The translations under genes were made by a program, and so were the position numbers. A DNA stretch of 64,000 nucleotides, taken from NCBI GenBank assembly GCA_028710415.1, contig JAQTUE010000008.1:1-64000 (forward strand), given 5' to 3'. Every line of letters begins with the position of its first letter. The first letter of the stretch is position 1. The notes beneath the pieces are model-generated. The model had not been told where the DNA came from, made no database searches, and saw only the letters and a list, made by a program, of their open reading frames with translations. Shown here piece after piece: positions 7,355-42,535 of this stretch. The stretch comes from Paludibacter sp. (lineage in GTDB: Bacteria; Bacteroidota; Bacteroidia; Bacteroidales; Paludibacteraceae).

Positions 7355-7932
7355 TTGATCGTATCTTAAGTTTAGAAATGACGTTTTATTTGGCAGAATA
7401 TTGAATTACAAACATTGCAATGTCTTTAAACCCGAAGGGTTAATATGATTGTAGAAAAATAGAATAACGCATCATATTAACCCCGAAAGGGTGATATAAA
7501 AAGACAAACAAAAAAACATCATGTCAAATATAATAATTGATTCAAGCCATCACCCGGAACAATAAAAACCGTAAATAAGTGTAATAAAGAAATCCTAAAG
7601 AGATCACAAATAATGTCACCCCCTTCGGGGTTCTGAGATAGACTGAGATATAGATAATTACAATAATATCACCCCTTCGGGGTTAAAAATATTCTTTCTT
7701 TAATAAATTAAAAAGGCATGAAAAATAGCATATTACCTTACTTTATGCCATTAACTTGTATAGGTTATGATAATACAGCAATGAGTTGAAGTGATAGCAA
7801 CTTGCTGTGTGAATGAAAAGTTGGGATAAATTGAATAAAAAATGAAAAGTTGATGATCAAATGTGGTATTGAAAGAATAGGGTAATGGGATAATGTATTG
7901 ATATTAAGTTATAAATTGATAACTATCGAATT
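7355..7932. repeat. nuoB-nuoCD gap with four REP-like hairpin motifs
   Basis: This 578-base gap has no convincing gene. Four copies of a short GC-rich palindrome resembling ACCCCTTCGGGGTT are visible at 7429-7441, 7479-7492, 7617-7632 and 7671-7684. The first two are joined into a larger stem by a 13-bp inverted repeat (GGGTTAATATGAT at 7437-7449 and its complement at 7471-7483). Such hairpins could stabilise or partly terminate the nuo message. The remainder is AT-rich. Confidence 0.75.
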
Positions 7933-9708: not shown

Positions 9709-10057
9709 AGTTGATTGGTTGATTGGTTAATTGGTTGATTGAGTTGATTGAGTTGATTGAGTTGATTGAGTTGATTGGTTGATTGAGTTGATTAAGTTGA
9801 TTGAGTTGATTGGTTGATTGAGTTGAAAGAGTTGATCGGTTGATTGAGTTGATTAAGTTGATTGAGTTGATTGAGTTGATTGGTTGATTGAGTTGATTGA
9901 GTTGATCGGTTGATTGAGTTGATTAAGTTAATTGGTTGATTATTTGAATTGGGTGCATTGTTTTAGGAGAATAGGAAATGGTAAATAGTAAATGGTAAAT
10001 GGTTTTAGGAGAATAAGAAATAGTAAATTGTAAATGAATAAATTGTAAATAGAACAT
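9709..10057. repeat. Degenerate GTTGATTGA tract plus GTAAATGGTAAATT tract before nuoE
   Basis: No gene here. From 9709 to about 9945 the sequence is a degenerate tandem array of GTTGATTG, GTTGATTGA and GTTAATTG units, starting directly after the nuoCD stop. From about 9961 to 10050 a different family follows, made of TTTAGGAGAATA and GTAAATGGTAAAT units, up to the nuoE start. The same two-family composite recurs before nuoJ at 16064-16239. Confidence 0.9.
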
Positions 10058-16063: not shown

Positions 16064-16239
16064 TGGTTTATCGGTTGATTAGTTGATTAAGTTGATTGAG
16101 TTGATTGGTTAATTGGTTGATTGGTTGATTGGTTGATTGGGTTATTGGTTTTAGTGAACATGAAATCGTAAATGGTAAATTGTAAAATTGTAAATGACAT
16201 TAGGAGAACAAGAAATTGTAAATTGTAAATAATAAAATA
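16064..16239. repeat. GTTGATTG tract and GTAAATTGTAAATT tract before nuoJ
   Basis: The nuoI-nuoJ gap repeats the composite seen before nuoE. GTTGATTG/GTTAATTG units run from about 16067 to 16143, followed by TTTTAGTGAACA and GTAAATGGTAAATTG units to 16235. No gene or obvious promoter was seen. Confidence 0.88.
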
Positions 16240-34303: not shown

Positions 34304-34725
34304 GTATTTAGTTGAGTAAGTTAAGTTAATTAAGTTGATTGGTTGAGTAAGTTAATTAAGTTGATTGAGTTAATTAAGTTGAATGAGTTAATTAAGTTGA
34401 TTGAGTTAATTATGTTGAATGGGTTGATTGAGTTAATTGGTTAATTAAGTTAATTGGGTGATTGAGATATTTGAGTTGAAAAAGTTATTAGAGTTGAAAG
34501 AGTTATTAGAGTTGAAGAAGAAATTTGAAAATTATATTTAATTGGTCAATATCTTTTTAAGAAATAAAACAACTGAATGAAGTAACGTCTCGTTAATCGG
34601 ATCAACAATTCAACTCAACAAACTTAATCAACCAATTAACTCAATCAACCAATCAACTTAATCAACCAATCAACTCAATCAACTCAATTAACCAATTAAC
34701 TTAATCAACTTAATTAACCAATCAA
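34304..34725. repeat. Opposed GTTGATTGA tracts between thyA and the PorE-like gene
   Basis: From about 34311 to 34515 the + strand carries GTTGATTG, GTTAATTAA and GTTGAATGA units. From about 34605 to 34725 it carries the complement, AATCAACC and AATTAACC units. The arms are separated by roughly 90 bases and would pair imperfectly in RNA or DNA. The right arm runs up to the stop codon of the PorE-like gene. Confidence 0.88.
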
Positions 34726-36708
34726 CTAGAACAGCTTATACGTCGTCTTCACCACCCTGAATTCCGATCGTCTGTTTATCTGATTCACCACTTCCTGTTG
34801 TTCAGGGGTTAGTTTGGTCACAAAAGCCTCATCCAACACGTCATTTTCTTTCAGGTAAGGATATTTCTTAGCCAGTTGGGCATCTACCACGACCGGCTTT
34901 TCTTCACCGTTCCCCACCGAACTTAACCTGTCCGAAGGAATACCCTTGGCAATCAGGTAATCAACTACTGATTTGGCACGTTTTTGCGATAATATCTTAT
35001 TCGATTCATTATTACCCACATAATCGGTGTTGGCACTGATTTCGATGGTGATATTCGGGTTGTCCTTCAATATCTTCAACAGCACCTGAAGTCCGGTTTC
35101 CGAAGCAGGTGTAAGGTCCCATTTCGCAAATTCATAGAATATGTTTTCAATCTCAATAGGTTTGGAGATGGCAGACAGCTGGAAGTTAACCGTAAATAAT
35201 TTGCTGTCCTTAAGTCCCTGGGTGGTCACCTTGTTTTTCTGGTTCAGGTATCCACGCGAGGAAGCCAGCATGATGCAATCCATATCCTTGTCCACTTTAA
35301 TCCTGTAGGTACCATCCTTTTTGGTTTGTACCCTGGCATTCACTCCGGTATTGCTTACCATGCGAACCACGGCATCAGGCAATGGGTTTCCTTTTTCGTC
35401 TACCACCTTTCCTTCAATCCCATAGGCCAGTTCCGGCAATACAAAATTCCAGATAGCATCATTTCCTTTAGTCTCATTGCGGTTGGAAGAGAAAAACCCT
35501 CTTTCTTCCTTGCCCGCGAAGGTTATGCCAAAGTCATCCCCCGAAGAATTGATCGGTGCACCCATATTTTCAACAATCCAACCACCATCCTTTTTAGGGG
35601 TAGCCTTAAAGATATCCAGTCCTCCAAATCCGGGGTGTCCGTTGGAGGCAAAATACAAGGTACCGTCCGCTTTTACGCTTGGGAACATTTCATCACCCGA
35701 AGTATTGATATCAGGTCCCAGGTTCTCGATAAACTTGCATTCCCCGTTTGCCAGGGTTGCTTTCCATATATCCTTTCCACCGAGTCCTTTTTTGGAATCC
35801 GATACAAAGTATAGCGTTACTCCATCAGGCGCAATGGCGGGATGGGCAACTGATATGGTACTGTCTTTAAAGATCTTAATTTTCTGGGGTGCACTCCACG
35901 TACCACCCGCCCGGTTGGTCATCATGATATCGGTTCCCCTCACACCATCAGGAACATACGGTGAACGGGTATAGTACATGATTTTCCCGTCGGCACTGAA
36001 TGAACAGACACCTTCATCGTTGATGGTGTTGATAGATCCTTCCAGCATTTCAGGCGCTTCCCATTTCCCGGCAGCATTGACACGGCTCTCAAACAGGTCA
36101 TTATTTGGCAAGCCTGTTATGGCACTGCTTTTCTGAATGGTTTTCTTATTGAAGGGACGGTTTGAAGTAAAGACGATCTGGTCGGTATTCGAGCCCATAA
36201 ATGCAGGGCTGAAGTTAGAGGAACGTCTTAGGTTAAAGTCTGTCGACCGCTTTACAAGATACCTGCTTGGTATATTTCTCCATTCCGCAACAAAGTTACA
36301 GGCTTTAATACCATTTTTAGCAACCACATTTGACGAATCCTTGGTCAGATAGATGGCGTAATTTTTTGCTGCCTCCGGATATTTCCCATTCTGCTGCAAT
36401 ACCTGTGCAAAATGCAGGTACACGATTGAATCGGAATAATTATAGCGTATGGCATTCAGGTACGCCTGCTCTGCCCTGCCCTGGTTGGTAAGCCGGTAAC
36501 ATTCTGCCTGACGGTATGCAATCCTGCCCCGTTGCGATTTCTCTTTCGCTGTCAGGCTAGAATACACCCGTTTGTATAAATTCCCTGCATCATAATACTC
36601 CCCGATTTCATACCGTGCATCCGCCTTTTTTATAAGACCTGCAATCCCACAACTTTGGAAGCCAATTGTTGTGAGAAGAATTATGTATAGGAAAGGTTTT
36701 ATACGCAT
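34726..36708 (-). CDS. PorE-like OmpA-family lipoprotein (type IX secretion associated)
   Basis: A 660-residue lipoprotein with signal MRIKPFLYIILLTTIGFQSC, where Cys20 is the lipid site. Order of domains: TPR-like helices (about 25-150); a WD40/PD40 beta-propeller (about 165-425) with repeats such as DGVTLYFVSDSKKGLGGKDI and ADGTLYFASNGHPGFGGLDI; a carboxypeptidase-regulatory-like beta domain (about 430-520); and a C-terminal OmpA peptidoglycan-binding domain (about 535-655, NTDYVGNNESNKILSQKRA). This is exactly the layout of PorE from Porphyromonas, which ties the type IX secretion system to peptidoglycan. Other OmpA lipoproteins share parts of it, so the name is a strong analogy. Confidence 0.8.
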   Translation of the reverse strand: MRIKPFLYIILLTTIGFQSCGIAGLIKKADARYEIGEYYDAGNLYKRVYSSLTAKEKSQRGRIAYRQAECYRLTNQGRAEQAYLNAIRYNYSDSIVYLHFAQVLQQNGKYPEAAKNYAIYLTKDSSNVVAKNGIKACNFVAEWRNIPSRYLVKRSTDFNLRRSSNFSPAFMGSNTDQIVFTSNRPFNKKTIQKSSAITGLPNNDLFESRVNAAGKWEAPEMLEGSINTINDEGVCSFSADGKIMYYTRSPYVPDGVRGTDIMMTNRAGGTWSAPQKIKIFKDSTISVAHPAIAPDGVTLYFVSDSKKGLGGKDIWKATLANGECKFIENLGPDINTSGDEMFPSVKADGTLYFASNGHPGFGGLDIFKATPKKDGGWIVENMGAPINSSGDDFGITFAGKEERGFFSSNRNETKGNDAIWNFVLPELAYGIEGKVVDEKGNPLPDAVVRMVSNTGVNARVQTKKDGTYRIKVDKDMDCIMLASSRGYLNQKNKVTTQGLKDSKLFTVNFQLSAISKPIEIENIFYEFAKWDLTPASETGLQVLLKILKDNPNITIEISANTDYVGNNESNKILSQKRAKSVVDYLIAKGIPSDRLSSVGNGEEKPVVVDAQLAKKYPYLKENDVLDEAFVTKLTPEQQEVVNQINRRSEFRVVKTTYKLF

Positions 36709-37083
36709 TGTTTGATTGGTTGATTATGTTGACTGGTTGATTAAGTTGATTAAGTTAATTGGTTGATTAAGTTGATTAAGTTGATTAAGTTGAATAAGTT
36801 GATTAAGTTGATTAAGTTGATTAAGTTGAATGAGTTAATTGAGTAATTGAGTTTAGTTGTATAAGAAAAAGTAAATGTACTTTAAGTTTAATAAAAAAAT
36901 AAGTTGAACATATTTTATGTTGATTTATCCGATTGAGCCAATAAACCAACAAGTTGAAGTAATTTTCCACTTACGCGATGAACTTATCCCCCAATTAACT
37001 TAATTAACTTAGTCAACCAATCAACTTAATTAACCAATTAACTTAGTCAACCAATCAACTTAATCAACCAATCAACCAATTAA
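36709..37083. repeat. Second pair of opposed GTTGATTAA tracts
   Basis: GTTGATTAA/GTTGAATAA units run from about 36713 to 36850, and the complement AATCAACTTAATTAACC runs from about 36990 to 37095, right into the stop region of the DUF1015 gene. The arrangement copies the one on the other side of the PorE-like gene. Confidence 0.88.
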
Positions 37084-38334
37084 CTAATCAACCAATTCAT
37101 GGATAACAAGCCCCGACCTCAACTTAGGTTCAAACCAGGTAGTTTTTGGAGGCATGATATTTCCGGTATCGGCAATGTCAATCAGTTGTTTCATCGATAC
37201 AGGATACAGTGCCAGTGCCACCTTCATTTCGCCACTGTCCACACGTCGTTTCAGTTCACCCAATCCACGTATTCCACCGATAAAGTCAATCCGTTTATCG
37301 CTTCGCAAGTCTTTAATTCCCAACACTTCGTCGAGTATCAGATTCGAAGAGATCGTCACGTCCAGCACGCCAATCGGGTCGTTATCGTTATACGTGTCCG
37401 CGTTGGCTGTCAGTGAATACCACTTACCCGACAAATACAACGCAAAATTGTGTAATTTATTGGGTTTATATATTTCCGTTCCTATTAATTCCACGTTAAA
37501 ATGATTTGCCAGTTTCGCCAGGAATTCTTCGTCACTCAGATTATTCAGGTCTTTCACCACGCGGTTGTAGTCGATAATGCTCAACTGGTTATCAGGAAAA
37601 CACACCGCCATAAAGAAATTATATTCCTCGTTGCCGGTATGGTTTGGGTTTTGCTGGCTCTTCTCAACGCCTACCAAGGCTGCAGCAGCACTCCGGTGAT
37701 GACCATCGGCTATGTACAAAGAAGGTATGGCAGCAAACAGTTCGGTGATACGGGCAATCGTTTTTGCGTCGTCAATGATCCAGAACTGGTGTCCAAAGCC
37801 ATCTCCCGGGGCAATAAAGTCATACACCGGTTTACCCTTAACAATATTGGCTACGATTTCATCCAGCTCATCCTGGTGTGGATAGGCAAAAAACACCGGT
37901 TCTATGTTGGCATTGTTCACCCGGACATGCTTCATGCGGTCTTCTTCTTTATCACGACGGGTCAGCTCATGTTTTTTGATATGGCCTTTCATGTAATCGT
38001 CCACATTGGCACAAACCACCAGTCCGTATTGCGTTTTTCCGTTCATAGTCTGGGCATAGACATAGTATTTTTCAACCTCATCCTGCACCAGCCATCCTTC
38101 TTTTTGAAATTTGGCAAAGTTCTCAGCGGCCTTGTCATAAACCTTTTCCTGATGTTCATCGGTTCCCGGTTCAAAATCTATTTCGGGTTTGATAATATGA
38201 TACAACGACATGGGATTACCGGCTGCCTCGGTGCGGGCTTCTTCGGAATTCAACACATCATAGGGCCGTGAAGCCACTTTTTCTACCAGGTTTTGAGGAG
38301 GACGGATGCCCTTAAAAGGTTTAATGAGAGCCAT
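37084..38334 (-). CDS. DUF1015 family protein
   Basis: A 416-residue cytoplasmic protein of the DUF1015 family. The start is MALIKPFKGIRPPQNLVEKVASRPYDVLN, and the highly conserved YIADGHHRSAAA is at about residues 208-219. Its function is not established. In many Bacteroidota it lies next to serine synthesis genes; here none is visible. A TACATTTG element at 38372-38379 is a likely -7 box. Confidence 0.9.
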   Translation of the reverse strand: MALIKPFKGIRPPQNLVEKVASRPYDVLNSEEARTEAAGNPMSLYHIIKPEIDFEPGTDEHQEKVYDKAAENFAKFQKEGWLVQDEVEKYYVYAQTMNGKTQYGLVVCANVDDYMKGHIKKHELTRRDKEEDRMKHVRVNNANIEPVFFAYPHQDELDEIVANIVKGKPVYDFIAPGDGFGHQFWIIDDAKTIARITELFAAIPSLYIADGHHRSAAAALVGVEKSQQNPNHTGNEEYNFFMAVCFPDNQLSIIDYNRVVKDLNNLSDEEFLAKLANHFNVELIGTEIYKPNKLHNFALYLSGKWYSLTANADTYNDNDPIGVLDVTISSNLILDEVLGIKDLRSDKRIDFIGGIRGLGELKRRVDSGEMKVALALYPVSMKQLIDIADTGNIMPPKTTWFEPKLRSGLVIHELVD

Positions 38335-38371
38335 AATACAACTGTTTTGCGTTAATTTTATTTTTCAGCCA

Positions 38372-38379
38372 CAAATGTA
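38372..38379 (-). promoter_or_regulatory. -7 promoter element for the DUF1015 gene
   Basis: TACATTTG on the minus strand matches TAnnTTTG, 38 bases before the start codon. Confidence 0.5.
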
Positions 38380-38661
38380 CAAAAATTCTTTTGAATAGAA
38401 TAGTTTGAAACTAAAGAGACTATCACCAATTTGAAACTGAGTAAACCACACAGACTACTGTTCACCTATAATTTAAAAAAATAAACTATTTTCAAAAGAT
38501 ATCACATTTCCCAATTGGCACTATTTTTGAGAGTAAAGTCCCTTTGAAAGTCAATCCATTCTGTTAATGTTCCTGTCCTTTGAACTTTTGTTTCTCGCAC
38601 TTCTTTCCGGGGATTTTCCATTGTGTTTTCATAATAAGTGATGTCTTCATCTGATTTACGT

Positions 38662-38706
38662 TGTATCTTAGATGTATCTTAGATGTATCTTAGATATAAC
38701 TTAGAT
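38662..38706. repeat. 11-bp tandem repeats, unit TGTATCTTAGA
   Basis: Three exact TGTATCTTAGA units are followed by TATAACTTAGA and TATCTC, then CATATCATTA and a distorted complement to about 38748. The period and the CTTAGATA core match the array at 5772-5860, read on the opposite strand. Confidence 0.8.
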
Positions 38707-39121
38707 ATCTCATATCATTAAAAGGTTAATATATCTAAGTGATATCCTTATTGAAAATAAGTTAAATACAAGATAATACCAAGATCAAGTGAAAACATCC
38801 ATCCACCAGGTAAAAAACCGATCCAGGAACATGAAAACAACTCCCCTCCTATTTCATTTTTTAATTGAAGATTAAAAGGGTTAAACCGAATGGCAGGACC
38901 GAACATCTATCTTTAGTTTGGTAACTTAGGGATGGATGATAGTCGGTATTAAGATGTTTATAGTGAGCACATTTATCTCCTAATTTATGAAACGTCGCGG
39001 GATGATTCAAAAAACCATTTTAATGTTTAATCAATTAAAATAATTGCAATAATTTCAGTTGTACTTGAATTTAATGTTTATCTGCGAAAATATTAAGCTA
39101 TGACTGAAAATATTGCAAAAA

Positions 39122-39256
39122 CCCCCTGCACTATTGAAAACCGTACAAATTGCTTTGTCTATACGGTTTTTTTTATGCCATGAATTCAGTACTTTATGTT
39201 TCTTTAAAATAATTGCATAAAATATTGGATAGTTAAATAAGAGTTTGTACTTTTGA
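39122..39256. repeat. Direct repeat, left copy, flanking the REP/transposase unit
   Basis: About 135 bases, roughly 85% identical by eye to 41018-41151. Both copies start CCCCCTGC, contain a terminator-like hairpin (AAAACCGTA...TACGGTTTT) and end with a TACTTTTG promoter-like box. Between them lie the REP array and the transposase. Confidence 0.85.
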
Positions 39257-39352
39257 TGTGTAATTACCATCTTCATGTTTTAAAATCCTAAGGATATTAG
39301 AGTTGGGATTGAAAATAAAACTGACAGCCAGTGCCAAATGTATCGCAATTAT

Positions 39353-39664
39353 AACTCCGTAGGAGTTACCAGTGCTTAACCCCCAGTGGAGCTTGCGGAA
39401 CTGGGGGATGATGAATAGATAAGATTGCACAACTCCGTAGGAGTTACCTGTGTATAACCCCCAGTGGAGCTTGCGGAACTGGGGGATGATGAGTAAATGA
39501 GGAGGCACAACTCCGTAGGAGTTACCCGTGTATAACCCCCAGTGGAGCTTGCGGAACTGGGGGATGATGAGTAAATGAGGAGGCACAACTCCGTAGGAGT
39601 TACCCGTGTATAACCCCCAGTGGAGCTTGCGGAACTGGGGGATGATGTATAGACAAGATGGCAC
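39353..39664. repeat. REP array, four 78-bp tandem units
   Basis: Units start at 39353, 39431, 39509 and 39587. Each contains the palindrome AACTCCGTAGGAGTT and a second stem, CCCCCAGT paired with ACTGGGGG around GGAGCTTGCGGA. The units are nearly identical. This is a tandemly amplified pair of REP-type hairpins. Confidence 0.93.
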
Positions 39665-40445
39665 AACTCCGTAGGAGTTGACCAACAAGTGCATCTGTTT
39701 TTTAATAGTGGTGGTGAACTCCTACGGAGTTCTGGTGGCTACTACAGTCACTTACCCCCAGATAAATCTGGGGGTTATGCACGGAAAACTCCTACGGAGT
39801 TAGGAGACAATACACTGCAAATAATATTTTTTCCAGGGGAGTCTGCAGAACTAGGGGATGAAGAATAGATCAGATGGTATAACTCCGTAGGAGTTACCTG
39901 TGCATAACCCCCAGTGGAGCTTGCGGAACTGGGGGATGAAGAATAGATAAGATGACACAACTCCGTAGGAGTTGACCAACAAGTGCATCTGTTTTTTAAT
40001 AGTGGTGGTGAACTCCTACGGAGTTGTGGTGGCTACTACAGTCACTTACCCCCAGATAAATCTGGGGGTTATGCACGGAAAACTCCTACGGAGTTAGGAG
40101 ACAATACACTGCAAATAATATTTTTTCCAGGGGAGTCTGCAGAACTAGGGAATGAAGAATAGCTCAGATGGTATAACTCCGTAGGAGTTACCTGTGCATA
40201 ACCCCCAGTGGAGCTTGCGGAACTGGGGGATGAAGAATAGATAAGATGACACAACTCCGTAGGAGTTGACCAACAAGTGCATCTGTTTTTTAATAGTGGT
40301 GGTGAACTCCTACGGAGTTGTGGTGGCTACTACAGTCACTTACCCCAGATAAATCTGGGGGTTATGCACGGAAAACTCCTACGGAGTTAAGATGGAGAGT
40401 GTACTTATTACCACCAGTTCCGCAAGTTCCACTGGAGGTTATGAA
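39665..40445. repeat. REP array, 294-bp higher-order units
   Basis: A larger unit repeats with starts at 39665, 39959 and 40253. The first two are complete and the third is partial, decaying by about 40445. Each holds AACTCCGTAGGAGTT and CCCCCAGT stems in both orientations, plus CCCCCAGATAAATCTGGGGG. Only one or a few bases differ between copies, so the amplification is recent. Confidence 0.93.
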
Positions 40446-40529
40446 AAGAAAACTACTACGGAGTTAAGAAATTACGAAACATAATATTTTAGAATTATCT
40501 ATTTTACTAAACTCTATAAACTAAACATT

Positions 40530-40982
40530 ATGAACAGCTATCGACAATCATTGCATCACATTGTGTTCTGTACATACAAACGTAAAAACACACTTCCGGA
40601 AGAACATCACGAAGAGTTATACAAGTTTATTTGGGGTATTATTAAAAACAGAAAAAGCTTTCTATACCGCATCAATGGGGTGGGAAATCATATTCATATA
40701 TTCTGCGATTTGCACTCTTCAATTAGTTTAGGTGACTTTATCAAAGAAATCAAGACAGCAGCGAACAAATGGATGAAAGAATCCGGCAATTTCCCTAAAT
40801 TTGAATCCTGGGCAGAAGGATATTGCAGTATTACGTATAATGATCGGGATAAAGACATGATTATTAACTATATAAAAAATCAGAAAGAACACCATAAAAA
40901 AGTCAGTTTTGAAGATGAACTTAGGGCATTACTAATTGAGAGTGGCATTGAGTTCGACGAGAAGTTTCTCTTTTCCGACTAA
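40530..40982 (+). CDS. REP-associated Y1 transposase (IS200-like, RAYT)
   Basis: A 150-residue HUH single-strand transposase. The HUH motif is in GNHIHIFCD (His54, His56). The catalytic tyrosine is Tyr114 in MIINYIKNQKEHH, where the NQ-x-HH tail is typical of this branch. It starts MNSYRQSLHHIVFCTYKRK, as in Bacteroidota IS200-like proteins. No accessory TnpB gene is present. It sits 85 bases downstream of the REP hairpins, the arrangement expected for RAYT proteins that act on REP sequences. The active-site residues are intact, so it may be functional. Confidence 0.9.
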   Translation: MNSYRQSLHHIVFCTYKRKNTLPEEHHEELYKFIWGIIKNRKSFLYRINGVGNHIHIFCDLHSSISLGDFIKEIKTAANKWMKESGNFPKFESWAEGYCSITYNDRDKDMIINYIKNQKEHHKKVSFEDELRALLIESGIEFDEKFLFSD

Positions 40983-41017
40983 TACATTCACTAATAGAAT
41001 ATAATTATCAGGAACTG

Positions 41018-41151
41018 CCCCCTGCCCTATTGAAAACCGTACAGATGGATTGTCTATACGGTTTTTTAATGCCCTAAATTCATTACTTTTATGTTTCTTT
41101 TAAATAAATGCATAAAATATAGGATAGTTAAAAAATAGTTCGTACTTTTGA
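41018..41151. repeat. Direct repeat, right copy
   Basis: Right copy of the element at 39122-39256. It carries the transposase terminator (41033-41067) and ends at TACTTTTGAAGC, directly at the start of the truncated ORF6N frame. Confidence 0.85.
41033..41067 (+). terminator. Terminator downstream of the Y1 transposase
   Basis: AAAACCGTA pairs with TACGGTTTT and is followed by T. The same hairpin is in the left repeat at 39137-39174. Confidence 0.7.
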
Positions 41152-41924
41152 AGCAAAATTTCCTGATTCAAGCCGCAAAACGGAATATTGAGAGGTTTCC
41201 GATTCAATATCGTTTTCAATTGACTGAACTTGAGAAGAATGAACTGGTCACAATATGTGACCGGTTCGAAGTCCTGAAACATTCTTCTTCACTTCCTTAT
41301 GTCTTTACCGAGCAAGGCGTGGCTATGCTATCGGCAGTATTACGGAGCGAAACAGCAGTGAGGGTAAGCATACTGATTATGGATGCTTTTGTGGAAATGC
41401 GTAAAGTGCTGAACCAACATGCCGGCCTGTTTCAACGAATGGACAAAGTAGAAAACAAGTTACTGGAGAACGATACTAAATTTGAGCAAGTATTTAAGGC
41501 TCTTGAAAGCAAAGAGGTGAATGTGGAAAGCGGGGTATTTTTTGAAGGACAGGTATTTGATGCATGGACTTTTGTATCCGACCTTGTACGAAGTGCTAAG
41601 TCATCATTGATATTGATTGATAATTATATTGATGATACGGTATTGAAACTGTTGGACAAAAGAGTCTTCGGCGTTACGGCAAGCATTTATACCAAAACCA
41701 TAAGCAGGCAACTTGCTACCGACATGCTGAAACACAATACTCAATACGCACCCATAGAAATGCACGAAATGAAATTAGCGCACGACAGGTTTCTGATCAT
41801 AGATCGTACCGAACTTTACCACATTGGGGCTTCCCTCAAAGATCTGGGGAATAAATGGTTTGCCTTCTCCAGATTCGAAAAAGGAACTATAGATATGTTG
41901 AATAAATTGGGTAATATGAAATAA
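41148..41924 (+). pseudogene. N-terminally truncated ORF6N-domain protein
   Basis: The frame opens at a TTG inside a promoter-like box. It joins the ORF6N family only at the internal motif AAKRNIERFPIQYRFQLTE, so roughly the first 50 residues of the usual domain are missing. The rest looks intact: SLPYVFTEQGVAMLSAVLRS completes the ORF6N part, a coiled segment follows, and the C-terminal domain (FDAWTFVSDLVRSAKSSLILIDNYID to HIGASLKDLGNKWFAFSR) resembles phospholipase-D-like ORF6N partners. ORF6N proteins are phage or mobile-element regulators. Loss of the start coincides with the end of the 135-bp direct repeat, so rearrangement at that point is likely. Confidence 0.8.
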
Positions 41925-42280
41925 ATCTTTTCGTTCTTGTCTATTTTTGCAATGAGTGAATTGTTCAAGTCACCTGTCCTACTGCATATGCTGGTTAAAT
42001 ATGCAAAAGGTGGCCCTCTGGTTCTCAATGACAGACAGGAGCTTTTATACATTAAAAGAGTATATCCGGGCAGACGGGGTTCGTACTTTTGAAGCGGAAT
42101 TACCTGATTCAGGTTTAAAGAATCCTAAGAATGCATGGTTGGAATTGCAAACAACAATAACCGGTATGATCCTTTACACATTCGAATAGGCTTATAAAGA
42201 TCCTACTGGACGAGTGGAATTAAGTACTTATACTGGAATTTGGGGTTTACGTAAAGTGATGTTAATTTAATAAAAAAATT
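41925..42280. repeat. Intergenic region with a dispersed-repeat copy
   Basis: Carries a copy of the CATATGCTGGTTAAAT family at about 41984-42112. It includes GGAGCTTTTATACATTAAAA and ends with TTCGTACTTTTGAAGC, which repeats the start of the ORF6N fragment. An open frame (41956-42189) crosses it but has no recognised features. Confidence 0.7.
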
Positions 42281-42535
42281 ATGGATAAAAACGACTTAAG
42301 ACTTCTGTTATCAATAGAAGATAGAGTAATCGCTGAGGATATACAGTATCTGTTGGAAGAATATGAGATCTATACCATGTTAGTTTCAGACAATCCTGCC
42401 TCATCAGCTCTAGGCTCATACATGGGATCAAATCCTACAGAGAGCATTGATATACAAATAAATATAGATGATTATCAGCGAGCGATTGATTTACTCACTG
42501 ATAGCCCGTATAAGGAATTAGTAGACAACGAATAA
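42281..42535 (+). CDS. DUF2007-like small protein
   Basis: An 84-residue cytoplasmic protein. IEDRVIAEDIQYLLEEYEIYTMLVSDNPASSALG followed by SYMGSNPTESIDIQINIDDYQRAIDLL matches the DUF2007 pattern (a small ferredoxin-like fold, sometimes called putative signal-transducing protein). The function is not known. It is preceded by a dispersed repeat and followed by another (42589-42640). Confidence 0.65.
   Translation: MDKNDLRLLLSIEDRVIAEDIQYLLEEYEIYTMLVSDNPASSALGSYMGSNPTESIDIQINIDDYQRAIDLLTDSPYKELVDNE

Follow-up and report, generated by a model that had tools for sequence, protein, structure and literature searches.

The ends of IS608 carry single hairpins that are not inverted copies of each other. 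In the classification of the HUH/Y1 transposases (TnpA_Y1), class 2, that is, the RAYTs, is characterized by the motif Y---NP and subclass 1.2 by the motif Y---Q--HH; the sections of that classification used here tabulate subclass 1.2 without REPs, describe it as generally devoid of IS-type terminal structures and give it a median length of 148 amino acids and a specific C-terminal domain (Quentin et al., 2018; PMC6006769). The window, which is the whole 64,000-nucleotide stretch of Paludibacter sp. DNA analyzed here, belongs to a genome of 6.28 Mb (104 contigs, completeness 100, contamination 6.3) and carries a gene with the subclass 1.2 signature next to a nested tandem array. The clade to which this gene belongs is really, and in an orderly manner, paired with ends that consist of three hairpins.

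The transposase gene and the adjacent array

The gene at 40530-40982 is an open frame of 150 codons with an NHIH motif and with Tyr114 inside the sequence YIKNQKEHH. The intact HUH/Y1 transposase with His54, His56 and Tyr114 of the original prediction is borne out by this frame, by the Pfam domain Y1_Tnp (7.3e-20) and by the location of the three residues in invariant columns of a 47-sequence alignment; the NCBIfam IS200/IS605 model gives 54.5 bits, slightly below its cut-off of 55. The solved transposases matched by sequence are of the IS200 class (best 4.7e-5), and an AlphaFold2 model of the protein (mean pLDDT 85.9) matches IS608 and ISDra2 at about 1e-7 and TnpAREP of Escherichia coli (4er8) only at rank 30 (2.3e-3). 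The closest relatives from named genomes include proteins from Paludibacter MAGs (79-83% identity), and the window genome encodes a single member of the clade, the next Y1 matches being at most 34% identical.

The 47-sequence alignment recovered 207 relatives in the named genomes scanned, of which the best 80 loci were used for comparison. The motif Y---Q--HH is present in 78 of the 80, one of the two exceptions being a fragment that stops before the motif, and Y---NP is present in none. By its Y motif, the window enzyme is assigned to subclass 1.2. Its NHIH and WA differ from the DH[IV]H and WQ listed for that subclass, and both variants occur within the clade (DHIH in 41 and NHIH in 23 of 80; WQ in 37 and WA in 29 of the 77 with an assigned W). 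The enzyme had been taken for a REP-associated transposase (RAYT); with the subclass 1.2 motif in place of Y---NP and no GT[AG]G foot at the hairpins, membership in the RAYTs is ruled out on the Y motif, and what remains is a functional analogy.

Both levels of tandem repetition reported beside the gene were recovered by Tandem Repeats Finder, with a period of 78 bp at 39353-39679 (4.2 copies, 93% matches) and a period of 294 bp at 39539-40389 (2.9 copies, 95% matches). The exact palindrome AACTCCGTAGGAGTT occurs 15 times between 39353 and 40388 and once more, with a single mismatch, at 40451-40465; allowing up to two mismatches, there are 16 matches in the window versus 0.08 expected. The final palindrome ends 64 bp before the start codon at 40530, rather than the 85 bases given at first. 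Each 78-bp unit is made up of the P1/P3 palindrome AACTCCgtaGGAGTT, a tag and P2 (CCCCCAGT...ACTGGGGG). The repeating entity is not the single REP palindrome originally proposed; it is a three-hairpin end, and the 294-bp unit holds an inverted pair of such ends, left (LE) and right (RE). The covariance model R1, trained on ends from outside the window (see below), detects the array at 4e-9 and resolves it into chained left ends plus three inverted LE-RE pairs:

39122-39256, + strand: direct repeat, left copy (identity with the right copy 87.5%)
39353-39664, + strand: four 78-bp units, read as a chain of left ends
39426-39529, + strand: three-hairpin end (LE), R1 48.0 bits
39582-39685, + strand: LE of the first LE-RE pair, R1 51.5 bits
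39665-40388: 294-bp tandem units starting at 39665, 39959 and 40253 (the third shortened)
39711-39806, - strand: RE (inverted end) of the first pair, R1 52.6 bits, single-stranded DNA fold z = -5.5
39876-39979, + strand: LE of the second pair, R1 57.4 bits, single-stranded DNA fold z = -4.7
40005-40100, - strand: RE of the second pair, R1 47.5 bits
40170-40273, + strand: LE of the third pair, R1 57.4 bits, single-stranded DNA fold z = -4.7
40299-40393, - strand: RE of the third pair, R1 41.7 bits
40405-40470, - strand: degenerate RE adjoining the gene, R1 23.2 bits (weak)
40530-40982, + strand: HUH/Y1 transposase gene with the TnpA_Y1 subclass 1.2 signature, 150 amino acids
41018-41151, + strand: right copy of the direct repeat

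Given this succession of + and - ends, the 78-bp part reads as left ends chained together, each unit sharing its P3 with the following one as the latter's P1, and the 294-bp unit as one inverted LE-RE pair plus a decayed end. Three of the window ends, folded as single-stranded DNA, form three hairpins each (z from -4.7 to -5.5). On the downstream side of the window gene, R1 found no end; the ends lie upstream only, the nearest one in the RE orientation, and in this the gene departs from the usual LE-gene-RE plan.

Of the three 294-bp units placed at 39665, 39959 and 40253, the first two stand and are identical at 291 of 294 positions, which indicates that the 294-bp step is recent, whereas the third lacks one base and breaks off after about 136 bp. 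The near-identity originally noted between copies holds for these two units and for one 78-bp pair (the second versus the third unit, 77/78) but not for the other five of the six pairs, which match at 69-72 of 78 positions; apart from the one pair, the 78-bp level looks older than the 294-bp level.

Several other features of the window were observed. The direct repeat at 39122-39256 and 41018-41151 brackets the array and the gene, with a partial third copy near 42080. Within it, an inverted repeat resembling a terminator (AACCGTACA...TATACGGTT) precedes a TAnnTTTG-like sequence, which is similar to a Bacteroidota promoter. At 41148-41924, the window encodes an ORF6N-domain protein whose N-terminus may have been lost at the direct repeat, given that the match begins at profile position 28. 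Tandem arrays of short units such as AGTTGATTG / AATCAACTT are located at 9709-9941, 16064-16150, 34312-34727 and 36719-37096. At 7423-7689, between genes with the Pfam domains of the NADH dehydrogenase 20-kDa and 30/49-kDa subunits, the end model matches another +/- pair, weakly (25.1 and 23.4 bits, E 0.03-0.06); its palindromes are of the ACCCCgaaAGGGT type, and it has no clear P2. A minus-strand frame at 39233-39694 was dismissed as a chance frame: its 26-residue repeats arise because 78 is a multiple of 3, and its Pfam scores are weak and below the cut-off. Rfam gave no match in nine loci at gathering thresholds and none in the window at 38000-42500 at E up to 1.

Mirrored three-hairpin ends around the genes of the clade

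Hairpins on both sides of the gene are apparent in many of the first 34 loci. When hairpins with a stem of at least 6, a loop of 3-6 and at least 3 G/C per arm were counted in 220 bp upstream and 200 bp downstream, the mean was 3.71 per gene in 72 loci (8 of the 80, with short flanks, being left out), with at least three hairpins in 57 of the 72 and none in a single one; control placements within these loci, no closer than 2 kb, had a mean of 0.20, and 0.48% of them had at least three (n=2092). Perfect triple hairpins with the right spacing were found as 36 ends in the 80 loci (17 left, 19 right) versus 3 of 5796 control windows, and this detection alone recovers far fewer ends than the covariance model.

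The clade around the window gene has cognate palindromes, arranged around most loci as the mirrored structure P1-P2-P3 - gene - P3'-P2'-P1'. The plan consists of P1 (6 bp, the loop often GAA or GTA), about 12 nt that close in the consensus TGAATA[AG], P2 (8 bp), about 17-26 nt, P3 (CAACCC...GGGTTG), the gene and the mirror image downstream. The tag before P2 is an unpaired consensus: among 150 ends, its TA has T in 100% and A in 99%, the following position is A or G, and the remaining positions are conserved at 58-87%. The P1 loop is GTA in the window and GAA, GGA, ATC or another sequence elsewhere. In the alignment of the 150 ends, 19 of the 21 pairs are altered on both sides in at least one sequence and the covariation score is 0.648, versus 0.211 for shuffled and at most 0.118 for slid partners, figures that are biased upwards because the alignment was fitted to the structure and the ends of the first alignment were picked for hairpins.

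A further test was provided by R1. From the 36 perfect-triple ends, two were dropped by eye; 34 were listed and 32 first aligned. That alignment (A2) was set aside because P2 was split by the shift between loops of 3 and 4, and the final alignment (A3) comprises 19 ends with 3-base P2 loops, excludes the window and omits 15 of the 34 listed ends. The model has 94 positions and 21 pairs, its E-values being rough owing to a short calibration. R1 was run on 81 sources (745 kb), and the counts that follow are based on its 222 matches (E up to 0.01) in the 80 loci. A + end lies within 250 bp upstream in 55 of the 78 loci with enough flank, a - end downstream in 65 of 76, and both in 46 of 74; only one locus has the wrong orientation alone. 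The median distance is 18 bp from the upstream end to the start codon and 9 bp from the stop codon to the downstream end. The 46,462 bp that lie within 300 bp of a gene hold 170 matches; the 428,120 bp that are more than 1.5 kb away hold 6. Of the 65 loci from which no training sequence was taken, 60 carry one end or more, and 36 carry both.

Altogether, 75 of the 80 loci carry at least one end, so that the RAYT-REP-like pairing originally described for this locus is retained inasmuch as palindromes adjoin a Y1 gene, and is not specific to it. No end was accepted at L070, L101, L117, L134 and L138, where all matches are excluded by their distance, their orientation or their E-value. At least three ends within 1.5 kb were found in 9 of the 80 loci (among the 150 best of 182 matches); at L083, L086, L088 and L091, which belong to other lineages, four or more copies are found no further than 1.5 kb from the gene; the window is therefore not alone in having a multi-copy array. 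In all nine Chryseobacterium-type loci examined, which were picked for similar flanks, the gene sits between the same two neighbour genes (in the two loci tested with Pfam, carbamoyl-phosphate synthase small and large chains, carA/carB-type) and has the downstream end only; this shared position suits vertical inheritance of a kept gene.

Nearer genes in further genomes of the genus (L139-L159) have an R1 match at 20 of 21 loci, the one without being L148. At distant Y1 paralogues in the genus, R1 matches were found at 3 of 14 loci (L024, L162 and L167) and no upstream hairpin in 12 of 14, two of the 14 being without the exact motif. As these paralogues mostly lack hairpins or R1 matches, the present claim is confined to the clade around the window gene, and the absence of REPs, as stated for subclass 1.2 in the sections used here (PMC6006769), may hold for the rest of the subclass. 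The more distant Y1 genes L023-L028 of the window genome and L160-L167 have Y---Q--HH-like motifs and are mostly without hairpin ends.

Dispersed copies and elements with terminal inverted repeats

A genome-wide search yielded the further copies anticipated by the original prediction. The exact palindrome AACTCCGTAGGAGTT has only 6 additional copies in the 6.28-Mb genome, a misleadingly low number, and exact counting was given up in favour of the covariance model; related units amount to 57 blastn segments, 6 of them inside the array, and to 55 R1 matches, about seven of which belong to the array. Of the 48 genomes of the genus, 43 have R1 matches (E up to 0.001; range 0 to 55 per genome). Among 150 listed places in these genomes, 35 adjacent +/- pairs were read by hand, and in 33 the ends are 9-15 bp apart; the dispersed, gene-less LE-RE pair is a unit of about 200 bp.

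The genus was divided by whether the best match to the gene reached at least 137 bits (21 genomes) or not (27 genomes, among them G008, with a gene fragment and 19 matches). The median number of R1 matches is 16 with the gene (minimum 2) and 4 without it (five zeros; p = 0.007), and at least two matches occur in 21 of 21 versus 17 of 27 genomes (p = 0.003), these p-values, like the one below, being too small because species and loci are related by descent. Given that 11 of the 27 genomes without a strong gene match carry at least 8 end matches (maximum 39), copies presumably persist or spread independently of the gene, or else are served by a diverged one. The phylum survey covered 247 genomes. 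With the cut for the gene set at 149 bits, a value picked after viewing the list, all 14 genomes that reach it have ends, versus 19 of the 233 others (p = 3e-14); with G167, which has 144.9 bits and no ends, included, the counts are 14 of 15 and 19 of 232. Ends are present in 5 of the 160 phylum genomes without an enzyme match at 1e-20. In this survey, at most 17 candidates per genome were scored with strict filters, so that copy numbers are lower bounds, and gene-adjacent ends were counted, so that the figures bear on the association of gene and ends rather than on the dispersal of all copies.

Many of the dispersed LE-RE pairs of the window genome sit within longer elements with terminal inverted repeats (TIRs). 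When up to 3 mismatches are allowed, there are 25 copies of the TIR AATGACTATCGRCTTTTGCACCCA, most of them where blastn segments had already been located; this TIR bounds seven distinct full elements of 407-421 bp, every one with a CCCCCAG core. Exact 8-bp target duplications, identified by eye in A/T-rich DNA, are present at three of the seven, two of these three being copies of one duplicated block. A second type of TIR was found at 4 loci of the window genome; other genomes have different TIRs, and some pairs have none. The window locus was not found between such TIRs. Inverted flanks score at least 15 at 22 of 37 dispersed pairs versus 6 of the 37 two-ended gene loci compared (out of 46), a rough comparison given that the 99th percentile for mismatched gene flanks is 15, that flank lengths differ and that some of the six gene loci owe their score to nested repeats. 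In genome G017, a 512-bp element (L248, 1501-2012) has the TIRs of the LE-RE elements and a different interior without the tagged P2.

Some copies of the gene also lie in elements of this kind. A Chitinophagaceae MAG contains two gene-bearing elements of 781 and 783 bp that are 98.5% identical, have unrelated surroundings and lie between the 9-bp duplications GTCAGCCCC and CCTCCCGAG; the MAG holds one more full copy, 94.8% identical and lacking an exact duplication, as well as three partial copies that terminate at contig ends. Target duplications of 8-9 bp are not known for HUH/Y1 enzymes. In view of the TIRs and these duplications, part of the wider spread probably occurred via another transposase, and the LE-RE pairs or whole cassettes would be cargo of TIR elements moved in trans. 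A longer TIR-bounded element able to hold a DDE gene was not found among the listed TIR positions of three genomes; a DDE helper may share only a few terminal bases with the TIRs or be hidden by contig ends. It is highly improbable that the HUH/Y1 protein itself, with the hairpin ends and the outer TIRs, drives target-duplicating transposition in the Chitinophagaceae MAG, although in these 0.78-kb elements (TIR-LE-tnpA-RE-TIR, 95-98% identical) it is the only gene and two of the three full copies lie in perfect 9-bp duplications; if it did, HUH enzymes would have a chemistry or a helper partnership not seen before.

Probable function of the hairpin ends and comparison with known systems

Based on these observations, we favour, with a probability of about 0.72, the reading that the three-hairpin array lies beside an intact subclass 1.2 gene whose product likely recognizes the hairpins and would nick and rejoin DNA there; a function like that of RAYTs and REPs is likely for the gene and its ends. 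The enzyme would bind the LE and RE hairpins as single-stranded DNA, with the tag and the hairpins as putative guide and binding site, and Tyr114 would nick and rejoin DNA next to the hairpins, as is thought for RAYTs on REPs. Because P1 equals P3 in the window, the chain can move out of register by a single 78-bp unit, and a duplication can take in an LE-RE pair along with its neighbour (294 bp); the array may have grown by slippage, unequal exchange or HUH-mediated rejoining, each of which would suffice. Wider spread was probably due in part to TIR elements whose cargo is an LE-RE pair or an entire LE-gene-RE cassette and which generate target duplications of 8-9 bp.

Alternatively, DDE transposases acting in trans could move MITE-like TIR elements in which the hairpin ends are cargo or structural components; the HUH gene would then be a passenger or a degenerate resident without action on the hairpins. 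The duplications are compatible with this possibility, 9 bp long at two gene-bearing elements of one MAG (98.5% identical) and exactly 8 bp at three of the seven LE-RE elements of the window genome, as is the fact that several unrelated TIR types hold the same kind of core. However, only 6 of the 37 two-ended gene loci reach a score of 15 for inverted flanks, the ends are similar across lineages whereas the TIRs differ, the catalytic residues are invariant across 47 relatives, no longer TIR pair for a DDE gene is seen among the listed positions of three genomes, and the constant position of the gene in nine Chryseobacterium-type loci fits a retained function; we regard this explanation as unlikely.

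Even less probable, by far, is that the hairpins are primarily mRNA elements (terminators, or elements of stability or autoregulation of tnpA) that were repeated only secondarily. The ends could be co-transcribed with the gene, being located a median of 18 bp before its start and 9 bp after its stop, but the dispersed LE-RE pairs without a gene are mirrored in the same way and no Rfam family was matched in the stretches searched; a role as DNA ends and one in RNA could coexist. An ordinary RAYT-REP system would account for inverted palindrome pairs, dispersed copies and one clade gene per genome, yet Y---NP is missing in 80 of 80 relatives, the fold is nearer to the IS200-type enzymes (IS608 and ISDra2 at about 1e-7, 4er8 at rank 30 with 2.3e-3) and the consensus tag is TGAATA[AG] with no GT[AG]G foot, so that its probability is minimal.

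Under the favoured reading, hairpin recognition by the subclass 1.2 enzyme, the gene and its array likely represent a second lineage of transposase/short-repeat partnership. If this is true, such partnerships arose in a second HUH/Y1 lineage, of the IS200-like class, which would allow the question of why genomes retain these enzymes and repeats to be tested independently. A likely enzyme could then be assigned to palindromic repeats scattered in Bacteroidota genomes, and for a subclass of obscure function the three hairpins together with the TGAATA[AG] tag would be a concrete candidate substrate. As their nesting in TIR elements suggests, repeats of this kind can also spread via other transposons.

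Among known systems, subclass 1.2, as far as the sections used here go, resembles the window in the motif Y---Q--HH (shared by the window protein and 78 of 80 loci), the length of about 148-150 amino acids, the occurrence in Bacteroidetes and the low copy number; it is tabulated there without REP, whereas the clade described here has mirrored three-hairpin ends, which are at odds with an absence of REP and IS-type ends, and dispersed end pairs (PMC6006769). No report of palindromes for subclass 1.2 was found in the open-licence PMC literature searched. With RAYT/TnpAREP and the associated REP, REPIN and BIME, the clade shares a HUH/Y1 gene between inverted palindrome pairs, an unpaired tag 5' of the hairpin and gene-less pairs dispersed in the genome. 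It differs in its class 1-type enzyme (no Y---NP in 80 loci, and YIKNQKEHH in the window), in the tag TGAATA[AG] before P2 in place of GT[AG]G (150 ends), in having three hairpins per end and in its number of end matches, 0 to 55 per genome of the genus. The IS200/IS605 elements of subclass 1.1 (IS608, ISDra2) provide the nearest solved folds and sequences and share the HUH/Y1 core; unlike them, the window protein has YIKNQKEHH rather than Y[IV]ENQ, the ends are long mirrored (inverted) three-hairpin repeats, and the window genome has one copy of the gene instead of many near-identical ones, in contrast to the one MAG with three full and further partial copies. Many dispersed pairs and a few gene-bearing cassettes have the attributes of MITEs (TIRs, target duplications and no DDE gene). 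Subclass 2.6 is similar in its presence in Bacteroidetes, its atypical flanking secondary structures and its copies elsewhere, as described in the parts of the classification used, and differs from the window in the Y motif YIH[QN]NP (PMC6006769). Within the literature covered, the nearest published anatomy is that of the TIRYT/TIRtrons, which, in the portions of the report drawn upon, form small dispersed families with a HUH/Y1 gene within long inverted repeats, some of them self-complementary (Di Nocera et al., 2013; PMC3733652); TIRYT proteins are RAYT-like (PMC3733652) and are treated under subclass 2.1 in the sections of the classification used (PMC6006769), whereas the system described here combines a subclass 1.2 enzyme with the P1-P2-P3 plan and, in some copies, a further outer TIR.
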